Source of the DNA: Planctomycetota bacterium
GTDB lineage: Bacteria > Planctomycetota > UBA1135 > GCA-002686595
Assembly (NCBI GenBank): GCA_028278425.1
Contig: JANQEJ010000037.1
Coordinates: 97,112-161,111, forward strand
Direction of reading: 5' to 3'
Length of the DNA: 64,000 nt
Positions 16,785 through 27,784 of the stretch are shown in pieces. A program made the position numbers and the translations under genes. Every line of letters starts with the position of its first letter. The first letter of the stretch is position 1. Under the pieces are notes generated by a model that made no database searches, was not told the origin of the DNA, and was given only the letters and a program-made list of their open reading frames with translations.

Positions 16785-17264
16785 CTATTGGAACGGGCTC
16801 TCGCGGTCGGGCGCGGCGGCGCGCAGCTTGGTCTCGAACTCGGCGTGGTGCGCGTTGGCGAGCCCGACGGCCGTCCACTCGCCGCGCAGGCGGAAGCGCA
16901 GGTGGTCGCCGGTCAGCCGCCATTCCTCGAGGTCCGCGAGGCGCCGCACGTACCAGCCGCGCCGGACGCCGTCGCGGCCGCAGACGCGGTCGCCGTCCGC
17001 GGGACGCAGCAGCACGAACGCGAGCGTCAGCGCCAGCGTCGAGAGGCTCCACGGCAGCGGAACCTGATCGCTCCCGAGCACGGCGGCGATGAGCGCCGCG
17101 GCGACGAGGCCCACGCCGAAGAGGCGGCCGCGGAGTCCGGGCAGCTCGCGCTGAACGACGTCCCCCACCGCGCGGGCGCGGACGCGCACGGCGAGCGCGA
17201 GCGCGACGCCGACGGCGAGCGCGACGTCGGCGCAAAGGAAGACGGCCTGGAAGTGGGCGGGCAT
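16785..17264 (-). CDS. small membrane protein (uncharacterised; TM segments then a soluble C-terminal part)
   Basis: MPAHFQAVFLCADVALAVGVALALAVRVRARAV...LVAAALIAAVLGS...; start codon lies inside the left 63-bp direct repeat. Confidence 0.5.
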   Translation of the reverse strand: MPAHFQAVFLCADVALAVGVALALAVRVRARAVGDVVQRELPGLRGRLFGVGLVAAALIAAVLGSDQVPLPWSLSTLALTLAFVLLRPADGDRVCGRDGVRRGWYVRRLADLEEWRLTGDHLRFRLRGEWTAVGLANAHHAEFETKLRAAAPDRESPFQ

Positions 17265-17315
17265 GGGGGCGCGTAGAATAGCGTGCCCGACGCCCTTTCC
17301 ACTCCACGGCGTGAC
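17253..17315 (+). repeat. left copy of 63-bp direct repeat flanking the radical SAM cassette
   Basis: gtgggcgggcatgggggcgcgtagaat...cgccctttccactccacggcgtgac; ungapped match to 21473..21535 with 7 mismatches counted by eye. Confidence 0.9.
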
Positions 17316-17352: not shown

Positions 17353-18714
17353 TCACCGCGGAGCCGAGAGCGGCTCCCCGCGCCGCCTCTCGGCGCCGTT
17401 CCCCGACGCCGGCCTCGTGACCCAGGTCGCGGTGTCCGGGTCGTACATGCAGTTCCAGTGCCGCGCGCCCGCGTGGCCCTTCCGTTCCACCGTCCGCACG
17501 AGACACGCGCGGCAGCCAAGCCGGAACTCGCAGCCGCCGCATGCAGGGGTATGCCTTCGCGCCAGGTCGTCCACCTCCTGGAGCATCTCCTCCCGGAGGA
17601 CGTCCTCCATGCCGGTCTCGTTCAGGTCGACCAACTCCTTCCGCCAGCCGATGCAGGGCATCATCCGACCGTCGGCTGCGATGAAGTACGCGTTGTCGAA
17701 GCAGTAGTGCGTCTCCCCGTTCGCCTGAAACGCGTCAACGCCGACCTTGAACGACTGGGGGGAGCTGGCTCCCGTGAAGGCGCCCAGCTCTTCGACCGAT
17801 TCGCCGCTTCCGGAGGCATACGGGAACACCATGACCACGGCGGCGCCGAGCTCCCGACCCCAGGCCGCCACGCGGTCCAGCCCTTCGCGATCCGCCACAC
17901 GGAAAGGAACCTTGAGCGAAAAGGCGACGCGCGCCGCCTTGAGGGCCGCCGCGGCGTTCACGAGGGCATCGAAACTCCCCGGCACGCCGACGGCCTGCTC
18001 AAAGTCGTGTTCCCGGTTCGAGGGTGCCAGGAGGACCAGATGAACGGGCTTTCCGCGGAGACGGTTCGCCACGCTCTCGTCGATGAGGTGCCCGGTGGAG
18101 TGAACCTCCAGGCGCATGCCGAGCCCCGTGCCGGCGTCCAGCAGGGCCCACAGGCGGTCCGCTTCGAGGAACGGCTCCCCGCCGCGGATGATCAGCTTGT
18201 CTACTCCGACCTCGTTCAAGATCTCGACGGCCGATACCAGCTCGTCGATCGGAAGAAACTCGCCGTGGTCGCTCCACACGCCGCAGGAACAAGCGTCGGA
18301 GGTCAGCCCGGCACCCGACGTACACCATTCGCAGTCGTAAACGCAGCGATCGCTGATCTCGACCGTCAACCTCCCACCCTCCCGGAACTGCCCGAGTCTC
18401 TGCACTTGACTCCTCAGCGGGGTGGGCCGGAAGTTCTCCACGCCGGTCCTGCGCTCCGTGAAGAAGCCCAGATTCAGCTTGGACAGGCCGGATGCGTATC
18501 CAACCAGGTCGATCTCGCGAACCCCGGCCTCGGTTGCAGCTTCGGCCAGTGACTTCCCCGAGTGGAGAAGGCACAAGGCCCGCGCGAATCGGGCGTCACG
18601 AATCCAGTAGATTTCGCGCTCGAACAGCCCGTGGATGGCGAGACCTTGCCGCCCCCTGACGAGCCGCGCGTCGGGTTGAAACGCGAAATGGCGTCCCCGC
18701 TCGGTTGGTTTCAT
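17353..18714 (-). CDS. radical SAM/SPASM-type peptide maturase
   Basis: TVEISDRCVYDCEWCTSG (CX3CX2C), LIIRGGEPFLEADRLWALL, C-terminal Cys cluster CIGWRKEL...CGGCEFRLGCRACLVR...WNCMYD. 4-bp overlap with the upstream radical SAM gene. Confidence 0.9.
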   Translation of the reverse strand: MKPTERGRHFAFQPDARLVRGRQGLAIHGLFEREIYWIRDARFARALCLLHSGKSLAEAATEAGVREIDLVGYASGLSKLNLGFFTERRTGVENFRPTPLRSQVQRLGQFREGGRLTVEISDRCVYDCEWCTSGAGLTSDACSCGVWSDHGEFLPIDELVSAVEILNEVGVDKLIIRGGEPFLEADRLWALLDAGTGLGMRLEVHSTGHLIDESVANRLRGKPVHLVLLAPSNREHDFEQAVGVPGSFDALVNAAAALKAARVAFSLKVPFRVADREGLDRVAAWGRELGAAVVMVFPYASGSGESVEELGAFTGASSPQSFKVGVDAFQANGETHYCFDNAYFIAADGRMMPCIGWRKELVDLNETGMEDVLREEMLQEVDDLARRHTPACGGCEFRLGCRACLVRTVERKGHAGARHWNCMYDPDTATWVTRPASGNGAERRRGEPLSAPR

Positions 18715-20345
18715 GACGGGAGCTCCAGCAGTCCGTTGCGGTCCATCAAGGGATCTCCGGACGAGAGCGCGTTCGGAGCTTCCTCAAGTATCGTGTAGAG
18801 GGCGATCAACTGCTGGGCGATTCCGCCGCAGGTGACGTCGCACATCTCCTCCGAGACGCGAAAGTCACCGCCATCGCAGGCCTGGGCGTAGCAGGTGCCG
18901 CACAGCGCGCGAGCCCAGCAGCGGTCACAGTCCGGGAGCGCATCGCGGTATCGACCCAGGACCGAGGCGGCTCGGTCCAGATCGAAGCCGCGCTCGACGT
19001 CGCCGATCGGGAAGTCCTCGTTGATCCTCTCGCAGAGGTGAAAGCGACCGTCGGTGGAGACCGCAATGCGCCGGCCGGGTTCGCAGGTGCCCGTAGTCCA
19101 ATGGCGGCCCGGGATTCCGACGAACATCGTGCGTTCGTACAGGGTCCTGAGTCCGGACTCGAAGAGCCTATGGAAGAAGCTCCCCTCCGGCTCCGGAACG
19201 CCCCGCCGCTTCCTGTCACGGAATTCGTCGAACAGCTCGTGGTACTGCTTCTCCGCTCGCCGCGTGTCAGCGGGGTATTTCTCGTGGAACTCGCCGTGGG
19301 CCTGATCGCGGATGTTCCCCACGAAATCGATGGGAGGTACGAGGGGGTCATCCGAGTCGAAGAAGTCCCGGATGGCGAGCAGATCCGAGTTGCCGGTCAG
19401 CGTGACCACGGCACGCACGTGCTTGTGGAAGTAGTCCTTGTCGATGCGGTAGAGCTTCTCCAGGTTGCGACGGATCGCGTCGAACGTGCCGCCATCGGCC
19501 CGATTCCTCCGGTAGCGGTCGTGCACCTCCTGGGGGCCGTCCATGCTGACCAACAGACCCACCTCGTTGTCGACCAGGAACTCCGCGAGGTCGATCGGCA
19601 GATGCGTGAGGTTGGTCGTCGCCGAAAAACAGAGGTTGTAATGAGCTTTCCGCTTGGACCGCGCATAGGCGACGACGCGCCGCAGCAGAGGCCCCTCTAG
19701 CAGGGGTTCGCCGCCGAAGAACGCAATGTCCAGCTTGCGCCTGGGAATGGAGCGAAAGGGCCGCTGGTCGTTGAGCTCCAGGAAACGATCCACCGCTCGC
19801 CGCGCGGTCTCCCAGGACATCTTGTCACGGCGAATCGATTTGTAGCCTTCGTATTGGCCGGAGAAGATGCAGTACTTGCACCGGAGATTGCAGTCGTCGG
19901 TCAGGACCAGGATCAGGTTGCTCATCACCGACGGCGTCGGCCTCCAGGCCGTGCCGAGAGGAGATTCGCACGCATTCACTCCCCGGTTGGTGTGGTCCGC
20001 GCACTCGTCGCAGGACGCGGCAGGGCCCGGAGCCTTGAAGCATCCGGCTCGCCTGCGCCATTTCAGGATGAGGGCGGTCAGGTGGGGCGGTGCCCCCAGA
20101 GCCTCGACGAAACCCGGAACGGCTTCGTCTGGCGTTGAGTAGAGCAGCTCCGTGTCCGCTACCGAGACTCCGTCCGGCCACGCGTGAACCGTGCCGGTTG
20201 CCGCATCGAAGAGGTACTTCGCGCGGTTCATGGAGTAGAAGACTATGAAGTCCTTCGTTGAGCGAACGTGTGGCGTCGCGTCTGCTGGTGACTTCCGTTC
20301 AGACCGCCGACCGCCGTTCTGTCCCACATTCGTTGTTCCTAGCAT
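18711..20345 (-). CDS. radical SAM/SPASM peptide maturase
   Basis: LTDDCNLRCKYCIFSGQYEGY (CX3CX2C), DIAFFGGEPLLEG, SMDGPQEVHDRYR, SPASM-type Cys cluster CERINEDFPIGD...DCDRCWARALCGTCYAQACDGG...CDVTC. Start at MLGTTNVGQ chosen; MNRAKYLFD (20231) is an alternative. Confidence 0.92.
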   Translation of the reverse strand: MLGTTNVGQNGGRRSERKSPADATPHVRSTKDFIVFYSMNRAKYLFDAATGTVHAWPDGVSVADTELLYSTPDEAVPGFVEALGAPPHLTALILKWRRRAGCFKAPGPAASCDECADHTNRGVNACESPLGTAWRPTPSVMSNLILVLTDDCNLRCKYCIFSGQYEGYKSIRRDKMSWETARRAVDRFLELNDQRPFRSIPRRKLDIAFFGGEPLLEGPLLRRVVAYARSKRKAHYNLCFSATTNLTHLPIDLAEFLVDNEVGLLVSMDGPQEVHDRYRRNRADGGTFDAIRRNLEKLYRIDKDYFHKHVRAVVTLTGNSDLLAIRDFFDSDDPLVPPIDFVGNIRDQAHGEFHEKYPADTRRAEKQYHELFDEFRDRKRRGVPEPEGSFFHRLFESGLRTLYERTMFVGIPGRHWTTGTCEPGRRIAVSTDGRFHLCERINEDFPIGDVERGFDLDRAASVLGRYRDALPDCDRCWARALCGTCYAQACDGGDFRVSEEMCDVTCGGIAQQLIALYTILEEAPNALSSGDPLMDRNGLLELPS

Positions 20346-20446
20346 GCCATGGCTCCCTGGCGTCGACCGATAACCGTGGAGGCGCGGGTGAAGCCGCGCA
20401 CTGGGCTTCACCCCGGGCAGGACTCATTCACGCTGGTCGGCTGAGA

Positions 20447-21058
20447 TCAGCTCCGGTATCCGATCGGCATCGGTTGATCCGGCGTGGCGCTGGAGAACAG
20501 CGAGCCGGCGATCCCTCCGACCGTAACGACTGAGGCCGTTATCGCGGCCGCGCCGACGCCGACGACGACGGACAGAACACACGAACCGCAGGCCGAGCAG
20601 ACGCTGCAAGTACTGCAGGTGGCGCACGCCGCGCACCATGCGCAGTTGTCCGCCGCGAGGTCGGTCGCGCCGAGGCTGGTGTGTAGCGTACGGGCCAGGT
20701 CCGGCGAGACGGGCATCGTGCTGCTCGTCATGGCCCCGGAGTCCTCCAGCACCTTGTAGAGAAGCTCGTAGTAATCCGTGGGAGCCGTCTTCCCCGCGGC
20801 CACGCCCTTCCTGATGGCGTCTCGGATCTTGTCGTCGTTCGCCTGAACGACTCTATGGATTTGCTTGTCGAGGAGGCTGGTGGGCGACCCATCCTTGTCG
20901 ACGGGCCCTTGAGTCGCCCGAAGGAGCCTCCCCGCGGCTTTCTTCGTGGCGTCGGTCGTGGCGGCATCGGGTTCGACACCCCCCGCCATGCTCTTCACGG
21001 TTTTCTCGCAGAGCGCTACGTCCTTCTCAAGCTCGGGAGTAAGCTGAAACTGCTCCAC
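20447..21058 (-). CDS. candidate RiPP precursor: long leader, 8-Cys CxxC-repeat core, C-terminal hydrophobic helix
   Basis: ...SLGATDLAADNCAWCAACATCSTCSVCSACGSCVLSVVVGVGAAAITASVVTVGGIAGSLFSSATPDQPMPIGYRS; adjacent to and co-oriented with two radical SAM/SPASM genes. Confidence 0.8.
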   Translation of the reverse strand: MEQFQLTPELEKDVALCEKTVKSMAGGVEPDAATTDATKKAAGRLLRATQGPVDKDGSPTSLLDKQIHRVVQANDDKIRDAIRKGVAAGKTAPTDYYELLYKVLEDSGAMTSSTMPVSPDLARTLHTSLGATDLAADNCAWCAACATCSTCSVCSACGSCVLSVVVGVGAAAITASVVTVGGIAGSLFSSATPDQPMPIGYRS

Positions 21059-21314
21059 AATGAGATCCTCCTTTTAGTCACTACTTCGTTTGACGCGAGC
21101 AATCGAAGCGACCACTCTCCACTCGAGATTCTCCCTCGGGGACCACGCCGAGGGCATTCGAACAAGTGCGTACTACGGCGGTGGAATCGACGTACGGGGT
21201 TCCCGCACGGATGCGATTCCTTGGAGGAAATGCACCGAACTACAGGTGCGATACGCACCAAGATCGGATGGCACGCTAGCGTAGATCGCCGATGAGGATC
21301 GACAGGGGAAAAGC

Positions 21315-21458
21315 ATGAGACGTCTGGGATACTTGGGCTTTCTTGGTCTGCTGGGTCTGCTGGGCTTCAAGGACCCGTCGCTCTTCTACCTGTTCTTCTT
21401 GTTCGCTTGCTTCTGGTTCCTGAAGTTGCCGGACAGGAGCAAGAAGACAGACGGTTGA
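21315..21458 (+). CDS. 47-aa hydrophobic micro-protein (not in ORF track)
   Basis: MRRLGYLGFLGLLGLLGFKDPSLFYLFFLFACFWFLKLPDRSKKTDG; ATG preceded by purine-rich gacaggggaaaagc; LGFLGLLGLLGF repeat-like TM. Confidence 0.6.
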   Translation: MRRLGYLGFLGLLGLLGFKDPSLFYLFFLFACFWFLKLPDRSKKTDG

Positions 21459-21472
21459 GGCCATGGCGTCCG

Positions 21473-21535
21473 GTGGGCGGGCATGGGGGCGCGTAGAATG
21501 GAGCCGCCGATGCCCTTTCCCCTCCACGGCGTGAC
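21473..21535 (+). repeat. right copy of 63-bp direct repeat
   Basis: gtgggcgggcatgggggcgcgtagaat...tgccctttcccctccacggcgtgac; contains the intact start of the AMP-ligase gene. Confidence 0.9.
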
Positions 21536-23114
21536 CCAGGGTGAGCTCCTCGACCGGCTCGCCGCGGAGCTTCCCGAGCAGGACGCGATCGTCTACCCGC
21601 AGTTCGGGACCCGCCTCTCCTACGAAGGGCTGCGGGACCGCGCCGACGCGCTGGCGCGCGGCTTCCTGGCGCTCGGGATCGAGCCGGGCGAGCGCGTGGC
21701 GGTCTGGGCGGACAACCGGCCGGATTGGATTCCGGTGCAATTCGCCCTGGCCAAGATCGGGGCGATCCTGGTCACGGCCAACGTGGCGCTTCAGCGCGAC
21801 GAGGTGGGTTACCTGCTCGAGCAGAGCCGCGCGTGCGCGCTCGTCTGCGCGCCGGGGCTGAAGGAAGACGAGTACTTCGAGGCGGTGGAGTCCCTGCGGG
21901 CCGAGGCGGGCGCGCTGCCGGAGCTGCGGCACGCGATCTTCTTCGACGGCGGCCCGCGCGACGGCTTCGTCGGCCTCGCGGAGCTGGTCGAGCGCGGCGT
22001 CGAAGTCCCGCTCGAGCGCGTGCACGAGCGGACGGCTGCGACTCGAGTCGGCGATCCGACGAACATCCAGTACACGTCCGGCACCACGGGCTTCCCGAAG
22101 GGCGTCGTGCTCACGCACGCGAACATCGTCGAGAACGCGCACGCCGTGATGCGCCGGCTGAAGTCGACCGGCGACGACCGCGTGCTCGTGCACGTGCCGC
22201 TCTTCCACTGCTTCGGCTGCGTGATCGCGGTGCTCGGAGCGATGACCAACGGCCTTGTGATGGTCGTCACGCAGCGGTTCGACCCGCTGCTCTCGCTCCG
22301 GGCGGTCCACGAGGAGCGCTGCACGCTGATCCACGGCGTGCCGACGATGTTCCTGGCGATGCTCGAGCACGAGGATTTCGCGCGCTTCGACCTCTCGTCC
22401 CTGCGCGCCGGGGTGATGGGCGGCGCGATGTGCCCCGAAGCGCTGATGCGGCGCGTGATCGAAGAGATGGGCTGCCGCGGGATCATCTCCGGCTACGGGT
22501 TGACCGAGTGCTCGCCCGCCGTGTCCGGCCCGTCGCCGGACGACCCAATAGAGGTGCGCGTCCAGACCGTCGGCCGCCCGTACGACGGCATCGAGGTGCG
22601 CGTCGTCGACCCCGAGAGTCTGGCCGACGCTCCGGCCGGCAAGGCCGGCGAGCTCTGGGTCCACGGCCCCAACGTGATGCAGGGCTACTTCGAGGACCCG
22701 AAGGCCACCGCGGAGGCGATCACGCCGGACGGGTGGCTGCGCACCGGCGACCTCGCGACGCGCGACGCCGACGGGCTCGTGCGCATCGTGGGGCGCATCA
22801 AGGACATGATCATCCGCGGCGGCGAGAACGTGTACCCCGCCGAGGTCGAGGACGCCCTGCGCGCGCACGCCGCCGTGCGCGACGCGGCCGTGTTCGGCGT
22901 GCCGTCGGAGCGTTACGGCGAAGAGGTGGCGGCGGCGGTGGTGCTGCGCCCGAACGAGACGGCGACGGCGGAGGAGCTCGACGGCTTCCTCGAGGGCCGG
23001 CTCGCGCGCTTCAAGCGGCCGGCGGCGATCTACTTCGTCGAGGCCTTTCCCCTCACGCCGTCGGGCAAAGTGCAGAAGTTCGTGCTGCGCGCGCGCTACG
23101 GCGCCTCGACGTAG
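21498..23114 (+). CDS. AMP-dependent synthetase/ligase (long-chain acyl-CoA synthetase-like)
   Basis: IQYTSGTTGFPKGVVLTHANIV, GYGLTECSP, GWLRTGDLATRDADGLVRIVGRIKDMIIRGGENVYPAEVE, PLTPSGKVQKFVLR. Confidence 0.93.
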   Translation: MEPPMPFPLHGVTQGELLDRLAAELPEQDAIVYPQFGTRLSYEGLRDRADALARGFLALGIEPGERVAVWADNRPDWIPVQFALAKIGAILVTANVALQRDEVGYLLEQSRACALVCAPGLKEDEYFEAVESLRAEAGALPELRHAIFFDGGPRDGFVGLAELVERGVEVPLERVHERTAATRVGDPTNIQYTSGTTGFPKGVVLTHANIVENAHAVMRRLKSTGDDRVLVHVPLFHCFGCVIAVLGAMTNGLVMVVTQRFDPLLSLRAVHEERCTLIHGVPTMFLAMLEHEDFARFDLSSLRAGVMGGAMCPEALMRRVIEEMGCRGIISGYGLTECSPAVSGPSPDDPIEVRVQTVGRPYDGIEVRVVDPESLADAPAGKAGELWVHGPNVMQGYFEDPKATAEAITPDGWLRTGDLATRDADGLVRIVGRIKDMIIRGGENVYPAEVEDALRAHAAVRDAAVFGVPSERYGEEVAAAVVLRPNETATAEELDGFLEGRLARFKRPAAIYFVEAFPLTPSGKVQKFVLRARYGAST

Positions 23115-24370
23115 CCCGAGCCCGCGCGGGTGAAGCCGATGGCGTCGAGCTCTTCGCCGAGGGCGCGGTACCAGTCGCGCTCCGCTTCGTCGGCCTCGAT
23201 GCGGTAGTCGGCGGCGGCGAACCAACCGGCGAGCGCTTCCTCCGCTTCGTCGCGATCTTGCCCGCACGCGCACGCGTAACCCGGGATCCGTGTCGTGTCG
23301 TCGTAGCGCGGGATGCGCTCGGCGACGCGCGGGTTGTGCCAGACGAGCGTGACGTCGGGATGGTCCTCCGCGGAGCGCGGATCGGGCCAGCGCTCCACCC
23401 GTCCCGGAGGAAGGCAGATCACCCGCCACGCGGCGAAGCCGTTCCCCGTCCCGCTCGCGCCGGCGCTCCCCTCGAACAGAGCACGCATCGGATCGATCCC
23501 CGAGCCGAAGGGCAGCGTGTTCACCGTCGTCACGTCGCCGTGGAAGCGCGGCGCCACCTCGAGCAGCACGTAGCCCTCCGCCGTGCGCAGGAGGTCCGCC
23601 TTGACCGGACCGACCGCGAGCCCGAGCGCGCGCGCGCCGCGCTCGACGATGGCGTACACCTCCTCCGCCTCGCCGTCCGGCAGCGCCGCGGGGTCATAGC
23701 CGCCCAGCGGCAGCCGCGAAGGCGGCGGCGTCGCGTACTTCTCGAGCACGCCGAGCGGGACGTACTCGCCGTCGCGCAGGAGCCCGTTGGCGTCGATCGA
23801 GCGGCCTTCCAGGAACGGCTCCGCGAGCACCGCGCCCGGCGCGGCGGCGCGGCAGACGTCGAGCGCCGCCGCAAGATCGTCCTTCGGACGGACGATCCGC
23901 ACCCCGCGCGAGCCCGAACCGCCGGAAGGCTTGAGGATCCAGCGGCCCTCCCCCATCGCCGCGCGAAGCTCGCCGGCGTCCGCGACCACGATGCCCTCCG
24001 GCGTCGGGACGCCCGCCGCGCGGAAGGCCTCCTTGGAGGCGACCTTGTCGAGCGCGCGGGCGATCGCGGCTTCCGAGCTCGCGGGCAGTCCGAGCTCGAC
24101 GGCGACCCGCCGCGCGGCTTCGAGCCCGTGCTCGCCGCCGCAGTAGACCGCGCGCACCGCGAAGCGGCCGCGCAGCGAGCGCGCGAAGGCGACGTGCTCC
24201 TCCGCGGCGGTTCCGTCGGCGACCAGCCGCTCGGCCGCGTGGGCGAAGCCCGGCGCGCTCGGGTCGCGGTCGGCGACGATGGGCGCGAGGCCGAGCTCGC
24301 GCGCCAGGCGCGGAACCCGCGCCGCGAGCGGTCCGCCGCCGATCAGGTAGACCGCCGGCTCCGCGCTCAA
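23096..24370 (-). CDS. ATP-grasp family protein (carbamoyl-phosphate synthase/biotin carboxylase-like ligase)
   Basis: LDKVASKEAFRAAGVPTPEGIVV, WILKPSGGSGSRGVRIV, VLAEPFLEGRSIDANGLL, LLEVAPRFHGD; TTG start overlapping upstream TGA. Confidence 0.82.
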   Translation of the reverse strand: MSAEPAVYLIGGGPLAARVPRLARELGLAPIVADRDPSAPGFAHAAERLVADGTAAEEHVAFARSLRGRFAVRAVYCGGEHGLEAARRVAVELGLPASSEAAIARALDKVASKEAFRAAGVPTPEGIVVADAGELRAAMGEGRWILKPSGGSGSRGVRIVRPKDDLAAALDVCRAAAPGAVLAEPFLEGRSIDANGLLRDGEYVPLGVLEKYATPPPSRLPLGGYDPAALPDGEAEEVYAIVERGARALGLAVGPVKADLLRTAEGYVLLEVAPRFHGDVTTVNTLPFGSGIDPMRALFEGSAGASGTGNGFAAWRVICLPPGRVERWPDPRSAEDHPDVTLVWHNPRVAERIPRYDDTTRIPGYACACGQDRDEAEEALAGWFAAADYRIEADEAERDWYRALGEELDAIGFTRAGSGYVEAP

Positions 24371-25503
24371 CGCGGCTCCGCCACGACGAGCGCGGCGCTC
24401 CGGGCTCGGTCGAGCGCGAGATAGGCGCCGCGGTTGACGCCGAAGGTCTCGCGCACGGCGAAGCGCTCGCCGACGAGCTCGACGAGCTCGTCCGCGTCGT
24501 ACTCGCGCGCGTGCGCGGGCGAGAGCGGCTCGCGGATCCCGGCGAAGGGGCGCTTCGCGAGCAGCGGCACCTCGAGCACGAGGACCCCGCCGGGCTTCAG
24601 CCAGCGCTGGAGGTGCTCGAGAAACGCGCGGTCGTCCGCGACGTGCTCCATCGTGTGGACCGACGCGATCAGGTCGAACTCGCCGGCGGGGAAGTCGAGC
24701 GCGAGGGCGTCCGCCGCCAGGAACTCCGCGCGCGCGCCGTAGCGCTCGCGCGCCGCCGCCACCGCCTCGGGGCTGACGTCGACGCCGATCGCGCGCCCCT
24801 TTTCCGCCAGGAGCGCCGTTCCCGCGCCGAGCCCGCAGGCGATGTCGAGCGCGCGCCCGCCCCCCTCGCGATCGGCGAGCCGCTCCGCGGCGATGCGGTA
24901 GGGGTGCAGCGGCGTCGCCGCGCCGTCCCAGCGCTCCGGCCAGAGCTCCGCCACGCCGCGGGCGACCGCCTCGAAGGCCGCGCGGTCGTAGGTCGGCACG
25001 CTCTCGAACGTCCGGATCGCGAAGCGCTCGGGCCGGGCCTCGGCGAAACCCCACGGGTTCTGGCGGTTCGCCTCGGGAAGGTCGACGAGCGCGCGCTCCA
25101 GGAAGCGGCGCCGGAACACGTCCGCGCCGAAGCGCACGTCGAAGTCGCGCGGCAGGTTGACGTAGTCGGCGTCGCCCCGCTCGAGCTCCCCGAGCATCGC
25201 CGCGACGAGGTCGACGTCGAGGAAGAACCACCAGACGAGCGCGCGCGCCAGGACGTCGGCGCTGAACGCGTCGGCGCAGTCCAGCAGGCGGCGGCCGACG
25301 TCGCGCTCGGCGCCGAGGAAGAGCTCGACGTCCCAGCGCTCGGCCCACTCCGCGAGCGCGCGGTTCTCCGGCACGTCGGCGGCGGCGAGCGCGACGCGGT
25401 CGAAGAGTCCGCTCGCGCACACCTTCGCGACGGCGTTCCAGCGCTCGAGACCGGGCATCACGTCGGTGTGGTGCATCTGGAACACGCAGAGCCTCCCGCT
25501 CAT
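24367..25503 (-). CDS. fusion: N-terminal nucleotidyltransferase-like (possible SpsF-type) domain plus SAM-dependent methyltransferase
   Basis: N-term ~170 aa with LPRDFDVRFGADVFRRRFLERAL; C-term ALDIACGLGAGTALLAEKGRAIGVDVS...SVHTMEHVADDRAFLEHLQRWLKPGGVLVLEVP. Confidence 0.72.
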   Translation of the reverse strand: MSGRLCVFQMHHTDVMPGLERWNAVAKVCASGLFDRVALAAADVPENRALAEWAERWDVELFLGAERDVGRRLLDCADAFSADVLARALVWWFFLDVDLVAAMLGELERGDADYVNLPRDFDVRFGADVFRRRFLERALVDLPEANRQNPWGFAEARPERFAIRTFESVPTYDRAAFEAVARGVAELWPERWDGAATPLHPYRIAAERLADREGGGRALDIACGLGAGTALLAEKGRAIGVDVSPEAVAAARERYGARAEFLAADALALDFPAGEFDLIASVHTMEHVADDRAFLEHLQRWLKPGGVLVLEVPLLAKRPFAGIREPLSPAHAREYDADELVELVGERFAVRETFGVNRGAYLALDRARSAALVVAEPR

Positions 25504-26519
25504 CGCAAGTGCTCCAGGTGATACCCGGTGCGCACCGCGCCGTCGTATTCGAAGTAGAGCGACGCCGGACGGAGCTCGGGCCGCGCGGGCAGCTCGCCCT
25601 CGAGGTGCAGGCTGAGCGTCGCGTCGACGAGGTCGAAGCCCGCGCCCTGCCGCAACAGACCGTCGGCGACGTAGTCGCCCGCGAGGTCGAGGTGCGTCTC
25701 GATCGCGAAGAGCTCGCCGTCGGCGCGCGCGCGCAGCGCGAGAAAGCCGACGCCGGTGCCGAGCTCGCGCACGAAGCGCCGGGCGAGCTCCCACGCGCGC
25801 TCCTCGACCGCGGTGCCGGCGAAGCGCGAGGGAACCGCGAAGCCGAGGCCCTGCGCCTCGGCGCCCGGTTCGAGCCGCACGTGCTCGTCCATGAGCGCCA
25901 CGGGCGCGAGCTCCCCCTCGCGGAACAGCAGCGCGAGCGCCACGTCGTCGCCGGGGACGAATTCCTGCGCCTGCACCACGCCGTCCTCGGACGCGTCGCG
26001 CGCCCGGGCGTAGGCGCCGGGCAGCGCGTCGGCGTCGGGCACCAGGATCACGCCCCGCTTGCCGACGGGCGAGCTCGACGGCTTGAGCACGGCGGGGAAC
26101 GACGTCACCCACACGAGGTCGCCCTCGCCGCGGAGCGGCCGCTGGTCCGGCGTGGGCAGACCCGCGGCCGCGCAGAGACTCGCGAAGCCGGGCTTCGAGA
26201 TCGACCGCCGCGCGCGCTCCGGATCGAGGCCCGGCAGCCCGAGGCCGCGGGCCACGCGCGCGGCGGCCGCGACCGGCGGACCGGAGGACTGCGACACGAC
26301 CGCGCGGACCGCGAAGCGCTCGAGGAACGGCGCGAGCGCGGTGTGAACCGCCAGCGCGTCGTGCGTGCTCGCCGGGACGTGCGCGTCGCACTCCACGAGC
26401 GCCGCGGCGCTCGGATCGCGGTCGACGCCGAGCACGGCGAGGCCGCGGGCCTTCGCGCCGCGGATGAGCGGCAACTGGCTTTCGCCCGCGGCGAAGCTGA
26501 CGACGGCGTCGCGCTTCAC
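25500..26519 (-). CDS. ATP-grasp family protein (second copy)
   Basis: SKPGFASLCAAAGLPTPDQRPL, FPAVLKPSSSPVGKRGVILV, VVQAQEFVPGDDVALALLF, FAIETHLDLAGDYVADGLL; GTG start. Confidence 0.8.
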   Translation of the reverse strand: MKRDAVVSFAAGESQLPLIRGAKARGLAVLGVDRDPSAAALVECDAHVPASTHDALAVHTALAPFLERFAVRAVVSQSSGPPVAAAARVARGLGLPGLDPERARRSISKPGFASLCAAAGLPTPDQRPLRGEGDLVWVTSFPAVLKPSSSPVGKRGVILVPDADALPGAYARARDASEDGVVQAQEFVPGDDVALALLFREGELAPVALMDEHVRLEPGAEAQGLGFAVPSRFAGTAVEERAWELARRFVRELGTGVGFLALRARADGELFAIETHLDLAGDYVADGLLRQGAGFDLVDATLSLHLEGELPARPELRPASLYFEYDGAVRTGYHLEHLR

Positions 26520-27784
26520 GACTCGTCCTCCCCGTAACAGCGCACGATCTCGACGCCTTCTTCCGCGAGCGGCGCCACCGCGCGGAACATCTCCTCCTGG
26601 TAGGCGCGCGACGACAGCACGACCGCGTCGAGCGCGAGCTCCGCCGCCGCCGAGGGCGCGTGGACCGGCCAGCCCAGGAACTCGCCGCCCTGTTTGCGCG
26701 CGTCGCCGTCGAGCACGCACGCGACCGCTTCGCCCAAGTCGACGAGCTCGAGCAGGAAGCGTGTGTGCACGCCGGCGCCGTAGATCGCGACGCGCTTCCC
26801 CGCGCTCCGCCAGGCGGCGGCCCGCGGGCCCAGGCGCTCGCGCAGGCCGCGCTCGAGCTCCGAGCGCTCCGCCCGATACGACGCGAGCGCGGCGATCAGC
26901 TCGTCGCGGTCGTCGAACCGGTCGCCGGGCCGCACCGCGTCGACGCCGACGTGGCGGAAGCAGGCGCGCAGGGCGGGGAACGCGTCGTCGCGCTCGACGA
27001 ACAACGGTTCGAACCCGCAGCCGAGCATCAGCCGCACCAGCGTCCCGCGCGTGAAGTGGGAGAGGTGCTCGAAGGAGTAGAACTCCGACACCTGGGCCTG
27101 GGGCCGCGCGGAGTCGGGAACCTCGACGAAGCAGAGCCCGCCGCGCTTCAGGAGCCGCGCGAGGTCTTCGGCGCTCGCCCGCGGATCGCCGGCGTGCTCG
27201 AGCACGCTGATGCACGCGACCGCGTCAAAGGACGCCGGCGCGAGCGACGTCCGCTCGAGCGCCTCCGCGACCACCTCGAGCCCGCGCGCGCGCGCCGCCT
27301 CCGACGCGTCCGGCGACGGCTCCAGGCCCAGGCACCGCCACCTGTCCAGCTCGAGCGCCGCCAGAAGATCGCCGCGCCCGCAACCCACGTCGAGGAGGAC
27401 GCCGCCGGCGCGGCCCTCCGCCTCGATCCAGCGGCCGAGGAACCGCGCGCGCCGCTCGGTGAGGGCGCCGTGGCGGCTGCCCTCGCCCGATTCGCGGAAC
27501 ACGGCCCCCGACGCGTGCCGGGACTCGCGGTAGTACCGCGCCATCGCCTCCGGCGTCGGCCGCGGGTTGGCGTAGAGGAACCCGCAGCCCGGGCAGAGCA
27601 CGAGGCGCACCTCGAGGCGCCCGAGGCAGGAGCCGGTCTCGTGCTCTCGGCGGTAGGCGGGCTCGGCGCGGTCGCCGCCACAAACCGCGCAGCTCACGTG
27701 GATCGAAGGGGCGGTAGTCAAACGGAGCCGTAGCGTACGGAAAAAGCTTTCGGTCCCCAGCCTCGGCGGCGGGAAGGCGGGCAT
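26516..27784 (-). CDS. C-methyltransferase-type SAM methyltransferase (N-terminal Zn-binding, C-terminal Rossmann domain)
   Basis: CAVCGG...LCPGCGFLYANPRPTPE; LLDVGCGRGDLLAALE; C-term KRVAIYGAGVHTRFLLELVDLGEAVACVLDGD. Start uncertain. Confidence 0.8.
   Translation of the reverse strand: MPAFPPPRLGTESFFRTLRLRLTTAPSIHVSCAVCGGDRAEPAYRREHETGSCLGRLEVRLVLCPGCGFLYANPRPTPEAMARYYRESRHASGAVFRESGEGSRHGALTERRARFLGRWIEAEGRAGGVLLDVGCGRGDLLAALELDRWRCLGLEPSPDASEAARARGLEVVAEALERTSLAPASFDAVACISVLEHAGDPRASAEDLARLLKRGGLCFVEVPDSARPQAQVSEFYSFEHLSHFTRGTLVRLMLGCGFEPLFVERDDAFPALRACFRHVGVDAVRPGDRFDDRDELIAALASYRAERSELERGLRERLGPRAAAWRSAGKRVAIYGAGVHTRFLLELVDLGEAVACVLDGDARKQGGEFLGWPVHAPSAAAELALDAVVLSSRAYQEEMFRAVAPLAEEGVEIVRCYGEDES

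Follow-up and report, generated by a model that had tools for sequence, protein, structure and literature searches.

We suggest, with slightly better than even confidence, that a three-gene cassette in a 64,000-nucleotide stretch of Planctomycetota DNA (here, the window) encodes a sactipeptide-type RiPP, in which two radical SAM enzymes, called rSAM1 and rSAM2, are predicted to install a nested thioether hairpin in the product of the gene beside them. The proposal draws on sequence features and on analogy with characterized systems. The notion is that rSAM1 would act as a TrnC-like catalyst that binds the long leader of the precursor, with rSAM2 helping as a TrnD-like partner. The sulfurs of an eight-cysteine ladder would be joined to alpha-carbons at three-residue intervals in the hydrophobic half beyond the ladder. 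The core would fold into a single nested hairpin resembling the four-rung one of thurincin H but having as many as eight rungs. The number and register of the links are predicted, and removal of the leader, export, and bioactivity are presumed. If this reading is correct, sactipeptide chemistry extends to the Planctomycetota, and eight donors would make it possible to ask if a single enzyme pair can close a core of double length, and in which order and register. The features are collected in Table 1.

Table 1. Features of the cassette and its boundaries, in window coordinates
Feature	Position	Strand	Remarks
Precursor gene	20447..21058	-	203 aa, GTG start; ORF translation
Leader	20645..21058	-	138 aa, residues 1-138; without family match; single Cys at 17
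Eight-Cys i,i+3 ladder	20579..20644	-	Residues 139-160; predicted thioether donors (inferred role)
Hydrophobic half	20483..20578	-	32 residues, 161-192; Gly/Ala/Val/Ser/Thr-rich; predicted alpha-carbon acceptor strand (inferred role)
Short polar tail	20450..20482	-	PDQPMPIGYRS, residues 193-203
Ribosome-binding site of precursor gene	21067..21072	-	AGGAGG; 8-nt spacer to GTG
rSAM1	18711..20411	-	Radical SAM/SPASM enzyme; longest ORF 566 aa; CNLRCKYC
rSAM2	17353..18714	-	Radical SAM/SPASM enzyme; 453 aa; CVYDCEWC; weakly TrnD/huazacin-partner-like
10-bp perfect stem-loop	20386..20413	-	Between precursor and rSAM1; possible intercistronic hairpin
63-nt direct repeat, left copy	17253..17315	+	Insert boundary
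63-nt direct repeat, right copy	21473..21535	+	Overlaps acyl-CoA ligase gene start
Hydrophobic ORF inside insert	21315..21458	+	47 aa; weak DUF3796 resemblance

Translation of the precursor gene reproduces exactly the protein and the eight evenly spaced cysteines described in an earlier note on this DNA. The ladder, CAWCAACATCSTCSVCSACGSC, occupies residues 139-160 (DNA 20644-20579, minus strand), and the cysteines of the protein lie at positions 17, 139, 142, 145, 148, 151, 154, 157, and 160. The codon pairs that separate the ladder cysteine codons (GCATGG, GCGGCG, GCCACC, AGTACT, AGCGTC, TCGGCC, and GGTTCG) include no two alike; thus, the ladder DNA is not a tandem repeat. Shuffling the protein 200,000 times gave an i,i+3 cysteine run of five at most, obtained once, versus the eight observed, and the seven-cysteine DNA pattern is unique to the ladder in the 7.8-Mb genome (two overlapping matches there). 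The Gly/Ala/Val segment and polar tail that the note placed after the ladder are both present, the segment being 32 residues long rather than about 28. The charged leader, put at about 135 residues, comes to 138, and its description as mostly helical amounts to a weak prediction, given that single-sequence AlphaFold2 modeling of the precursor (pLDDT 42) is uninformative on the fold.

Residues 161-192 contain no Cys, Pro, His, Asn, Gln, or charged residue and have a GRAVY score of 1.74. Their 19-residue Kyte-Doolittle value, 2.33, is that of a transmembrane segment, which, together with the lack of an exporter in the cassette, speaks for a membrane-anchored rod: the hydrophobic half would be a transmembrane helix displaying a crosslinked or metal-binding ladder. 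The earlier note put forward such a rod as one possible product of a candidate new precursor. We consider it improbable. Hydrophobic halves rich in Gly, Ala, Ser, and Thr are normal in paired sactipeptides, where they carry the thioether acceptors, and searches of Pfam and NCBIfam models and of the PDB revealed no match to an ordinary metalloprotein family. By analogy with thurincin H, in which a hydrophobic half likewise succeeds an i,i+3 ladder, the apparent transmembrane helix is better read as supplying the acceptors of a thioether hairpin. More generally, a Gly/Ala/Val-rich “transmembrane helix” next to a cysteine ladder and SPASM enzymes is easily misread, and can be the acceptor half of such a hairpin.

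In thurincin H, the thioethers join Cys4 to Ser28, Cys7 to Thr25, Cys10 to Thr22, and Cys13 to Asn19, a nested set that advances in steps of three on both sides (PMC8172795). When this register is extended to eight rungs with a turn of 4-9 residues, the last acceptor falls at residue 186-191, inside the uncharged, proline-free stretch 161-192. Composition points the same way. The tails beyond the last cysteine in paired systems have GRAVY scores of 0.91-1.26 and 0-2 charged, His, Asn, or Gln residues, and the corresponding tail here scores 1.01 overall and 1.74 minus its final 11 residues. By contrast, the tails of CcpM and Apre_1838 precursors are polar (GRAVY -0.27 to -1.64, with 4-13 charged, His, Asn, or Gln residues). 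We favor the eight-rung nested hairpin because the thurincin H register fits residues 161-192 and because their hydrophobic composition resembles that of paired-sactipeptide tails. The layout, cysteines in the first half and a hydrophobic half after them, is thus of the nested type, with the links themselves predicted.

Domain-model matches confirm that two SPASM radical SAM genes adjoin the precursor gene, as the earlier note had it, so a precursor gene lies beside a radical SAM enzyme carrying SPASM auxiliary-cluster cysteines, one of the features expected of sactipeptides. The genes encoding rSAM2 and rSAM1 overlap by 4 nt. The true rSAM1 start is likely the ATG at 20345, since AGGGAG lies upstream of it and the alternative GTG sits inside the 10-bp stem-loop; the whole 105-nt stretch between precursor and rSAM1 folds no better than shuffled sequences (z -0.63). 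The solved structure nearest to rSAM1 by sequence is 5wgg, which we take to be the ranthipeptide enzyme CteB. Among NCBIfam models, rSAM1 scores best against CcpM/Clo7bot (TIGR04068; 215 bits, below the 500-bit cut-off), and it also falls below the cut-offs of the RumMC sactipeptide maturase model NF035951 (193 of 720 bits) and the PapB ranthipeptide model NF047865 (145 of 340 bits).

These scores bear on the principal rival to our reading, in which the same two enzymes carry out a different cysteine chemistry: ranthipeptide thioethers to beta- or gamma-carbons, un-nested links within the ladder, or a CcpM-type modification, on whose chemistry we know of no report. That CcpM is the top model, that PapB registers at all, and that CcpM-like enzymes adjoin cysteine-rich precursors with mixed spacings lend this rival some weight, and we regard it as unlikely yet deserving of serious consideration. 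Against it, the CcpM and PapB scores are far under their cut-offs, rSAM1 lies outside the CcpM clade (support 96/99), CcpM precursor tails are polar, and neither the ladder nor the hydrophobic half offers the Asp or Glu partners of PapB ranthipeptides and CX3D-type links. In the tree, rSAM1 instead falls among TrnC-like, huazacin-type, C. estertheticum, and Apre_1838 enzymes; the branches are long and its exact placement is uncertain, and the enzymes of paired systems form no single supported clade, both of which count against the sactipeptide reading. The SPASM spacing of rSAM1, Cx11Gx4Cx34Cx2Cx5Cx2C, parallels that of TrnC, Cx11Gx4Cx36Cx2Cx5Cx2Cx14C (PMC12093266). As to a leader-binding RRE domain in the enzyme, the alignment of rSAM1 to the C. 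estertheticum enzyme begins at residue 58, ahead of the radical SAM domain.

The relatives of rSAM1 found on plasmids include enzymes of Ruminococcus albus huazacin-family and C. estertheticum clusters, each of which has a second SPASM protein. A search from the R. albus enzymes leads in turn to clusters of the thuricin-CD type in the Bacillus cereus group, which combine a pair of TrnA/TrnB-like precursors and a pair of radical SAM genes with an ABC transporter and an S41 peptidase. Among the enzymes compared, rSAM2 is closest to the second members of the pairs from the R. albus huazacin-type and B. paranthracis thuricin-CD-type clusters; identity to the R. albus one is 20.5% over 414 aa, collinearly. 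A TrnD-like profile built here gives rSAM2 57.1 bits and the next best outsider 46. The heme synthase AhbD model scores about as well (60.7 bits); thus, the placement of rSAM2 as TrnD-like is weak, which also counts against our reading. TrnC and TrnD work as a complex on one core, and the radical chemistry of TrnD is reported to be dispensable (PMC12093266). The C. estertheticum partner enzyme, which lacks a CxxxCxxC motif, is in keeping with that report (PMC12093266). No rSAM2-like partner was present in 20 Clostridia CcpM-type loci.

Searches at strict thresholds, the large ones scoring few candidates per genome, returned only the window’s own rSAM1 from 154 genomes of the class (1e-60) and from a 395-genome sample of the phylum (1e-40) plus 189 Myxococcota (1e-35). 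The class search for rSAM2 likewise recovered only the window’s own. In Clostridia, 11 of 246 genomes contain rSAM1-like enzymes. One Clostridia genome carries five of them at five loci, and several of these adjoin short cysteine-rich precursors with mixed CxC/CxxC spacing.

The precursor has no relative in Pfam, NCBIfam, PADLOC, PHROGs, or PDB searches, nor a homologue among 81 genomes of the family, viral contigs, plasmids, and phages; the 81-genome search yielded three hits at E = 0.002-0.009, mainly over the core or its tail. The huazacin precursor model NF037972 did not match it, even with the E threshold relaxed to 10. In a GTDB-wide scan for eight-cysteine ladders, nearly all of the matches listed are tandem DNA repeats, and one locus alone among them has an rSAM1-like gene nearby. 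At that locus (L058, 2858-4650, on a Candidatus Brocadiaceae contig), a radical SAM/SPASM gene whose product is 31% identical to rSAM1 over 159 residues adjoins the gene for a protein in which a CxxC-rich Cys/Thr core comes after a twin-arginine-like signal; the locus represents a separate cysteine-rich radical SAM system from the same phylum. A seven-cysteine scan of 395 genomes of the phylum showed no rSAM1-like neighbor at the loci examined from among the matches listed. A Clostridia protein (L019, 4346-5281) ends in CACSTCNTCGTCNSCNTCSTCRTC, a genuine-looking eight-cysteine i,i+3 ladder; the 8 kb examined at this locus contain no rSAM1-like gene.

Another locus from the scans resembles a heterocycloanthracin-kind precursor with an i,i+3 ladder, and heterocycloanthracin precursors share the Cys-Xaa-Xaa repeat (PMC2674419), so an azole RiPP of that kind deserves mention. 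We give it scarcely any credence: the neighbors here are radical SAM enzymes, and azole chemistry is disfavored because no YcaO cyclodehydratase was found in the 89%-complete genome by a search that was positive in five control genomes. Together, the order of the genes, the kind of enzyme, and the lack of YcaO lend good support to the earlier proposal that the cysteine-rich protein is a substrate of the neighboring SPASM enzymes.

The cassette differs in composition from its surroundings. Specifically, most of the stretch at 17.3-21.5 kb has a GC content of 0.62-0.66, compared with roughly 0.71-0.77 to its left and right. The copies of the bounding 63-nt repeat are 89% identical, and two patterns tried detected no further copy in the window. 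In a relative from the same family, homologues of the genes on either side of the cassette, which encode a 160-aa membrane protein and the acyl-CoA ligase, stand next to each other in divergent orientation, under about 60 bp apart, and the site, which contains none of the cassette genes, is empty. The low GC, the bounding repeat, and the empty site are most simply explained if the precursor, rSAM1, and rSAM2 genes constitute an insertion of about 4.2 kb. That the three genes are same-strand, closely spaced, and share one low-GC insert with its own boundaries argues against an unmodified cysteine-rich protein, bearing disulfides or metal, that lies beside radical SAM genes by chance. The locus has no known product, which suits that explanation; we nonetheless hold it to be very improbable. 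The 47-aa ORF in the insert, which begins MRRLGYLGFLGLLGLLGF, resembles DUF3796 at E = 0.001, below the cut-off, and has two weak matches in the same taxonomic order, both on short contigs in contexts without an rSAM1- or rSAM2-like gene. It is possibly an immunity or membrane peptide, or spurious. Also in the window, at 23096-27697, four same-strand genes encode two ATP-grasp-type proteins alternating with two methyltransferases. One of the ATP-grasp-type proteins weakly matches an L-amino acid ligase C-terminal domain, and the four genes are possibly a small biosynthetic cluster.

Within the cassette, we saw no integrase, ABC exporter, protease, or regulator, and no exporter, protease, or regulator is adjacent to it. 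A clustered exporter and protease are usual, non-defining features of sactipeptide loci; the lack of exporter, protease, and regulator, like a leader that greatly exceeds in length those of the paired sactipeptides compared, counts against our reading. One variant would have the thioether zipper stay on the 138-aa leader domain, unexported, as a crosslinked and perhaps membrane-inserted cellular protein. We deem this outcome improbable as well. If true, a leader-attached eight-rung zipper would not be a secreted antibiotic but would represent a new class of proteins crosslinked by radical SAM enzymes.

We return to the extended sactipeptide. The earlier note recognized no family in the combination of ladder and transmembrane-like helix; that holds for the precursor, which matches no family, but thurincin H has this layout, and thuricin CD and huazacin have the arrangement with two enzymes. 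Like thurincin H, the system has a core whose first half carries an i,i+3 cysteine ladder and whose second is a hydrophobic acceptor half, together with a SPASM radical SAM enzyme. It departs from thurincin H in having eight cysteines rather than four, a 138-aa leader where the whole thurincin H precursor has 40 aa, and a second radical SAM enzyme, in lacking an exporter or protease, and in its planctomycete host. With thuricin CD it shares two radical SAM enzymes by the precursor, TrnC-like SPASM cysteine spacing, and a hydrophobic half beyond the cysteines; thuricin CD differs in its i,i+4 cysteines, three per peptide, its two precursors, its ABC transporter and S41 peptidase, and a TrnD SPASM domain that is reportedly truncated, whereas rSAM2 has the full cysteine set. 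Huazacin/thuricin Z (R. albus pRUMAL03) also has two enzymes, one matching rSAM1 and one rSAM2, the latter collinearly along almost all of its length, but it has four core cysteines and a precursor family, NF037972, that does not match the window protein. CcpM/Clo7bot (TIGR04068) provides the top NCBIfam model for rSAM1 and has cysteine-rich precursors, but these are short and combine MKKLGKK-type leaders with polar tails and mixed cysteine spacing. Heterocycloanthracin has a Cys-Xaa-Xaa ladder but uses YcaO azole chemistry. In the characterized sactipeptides whose links are spelled out in a 2021 review, all of them from Bacillota, the number of thioethers does not exceed four (PMC8172795), and our literature search, confined to titles, found no paper combining sactipeptides with Planctomycetes. 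The present system is set apart from known sactipeptides by its eight cysteines, its 138-aa leader, its lack of a nearby exporter or protease, its planctomycete host, and a precursor with no homologue in the collections searched. This combination would be a new sactipeptide variant rather than a categorically new kind.
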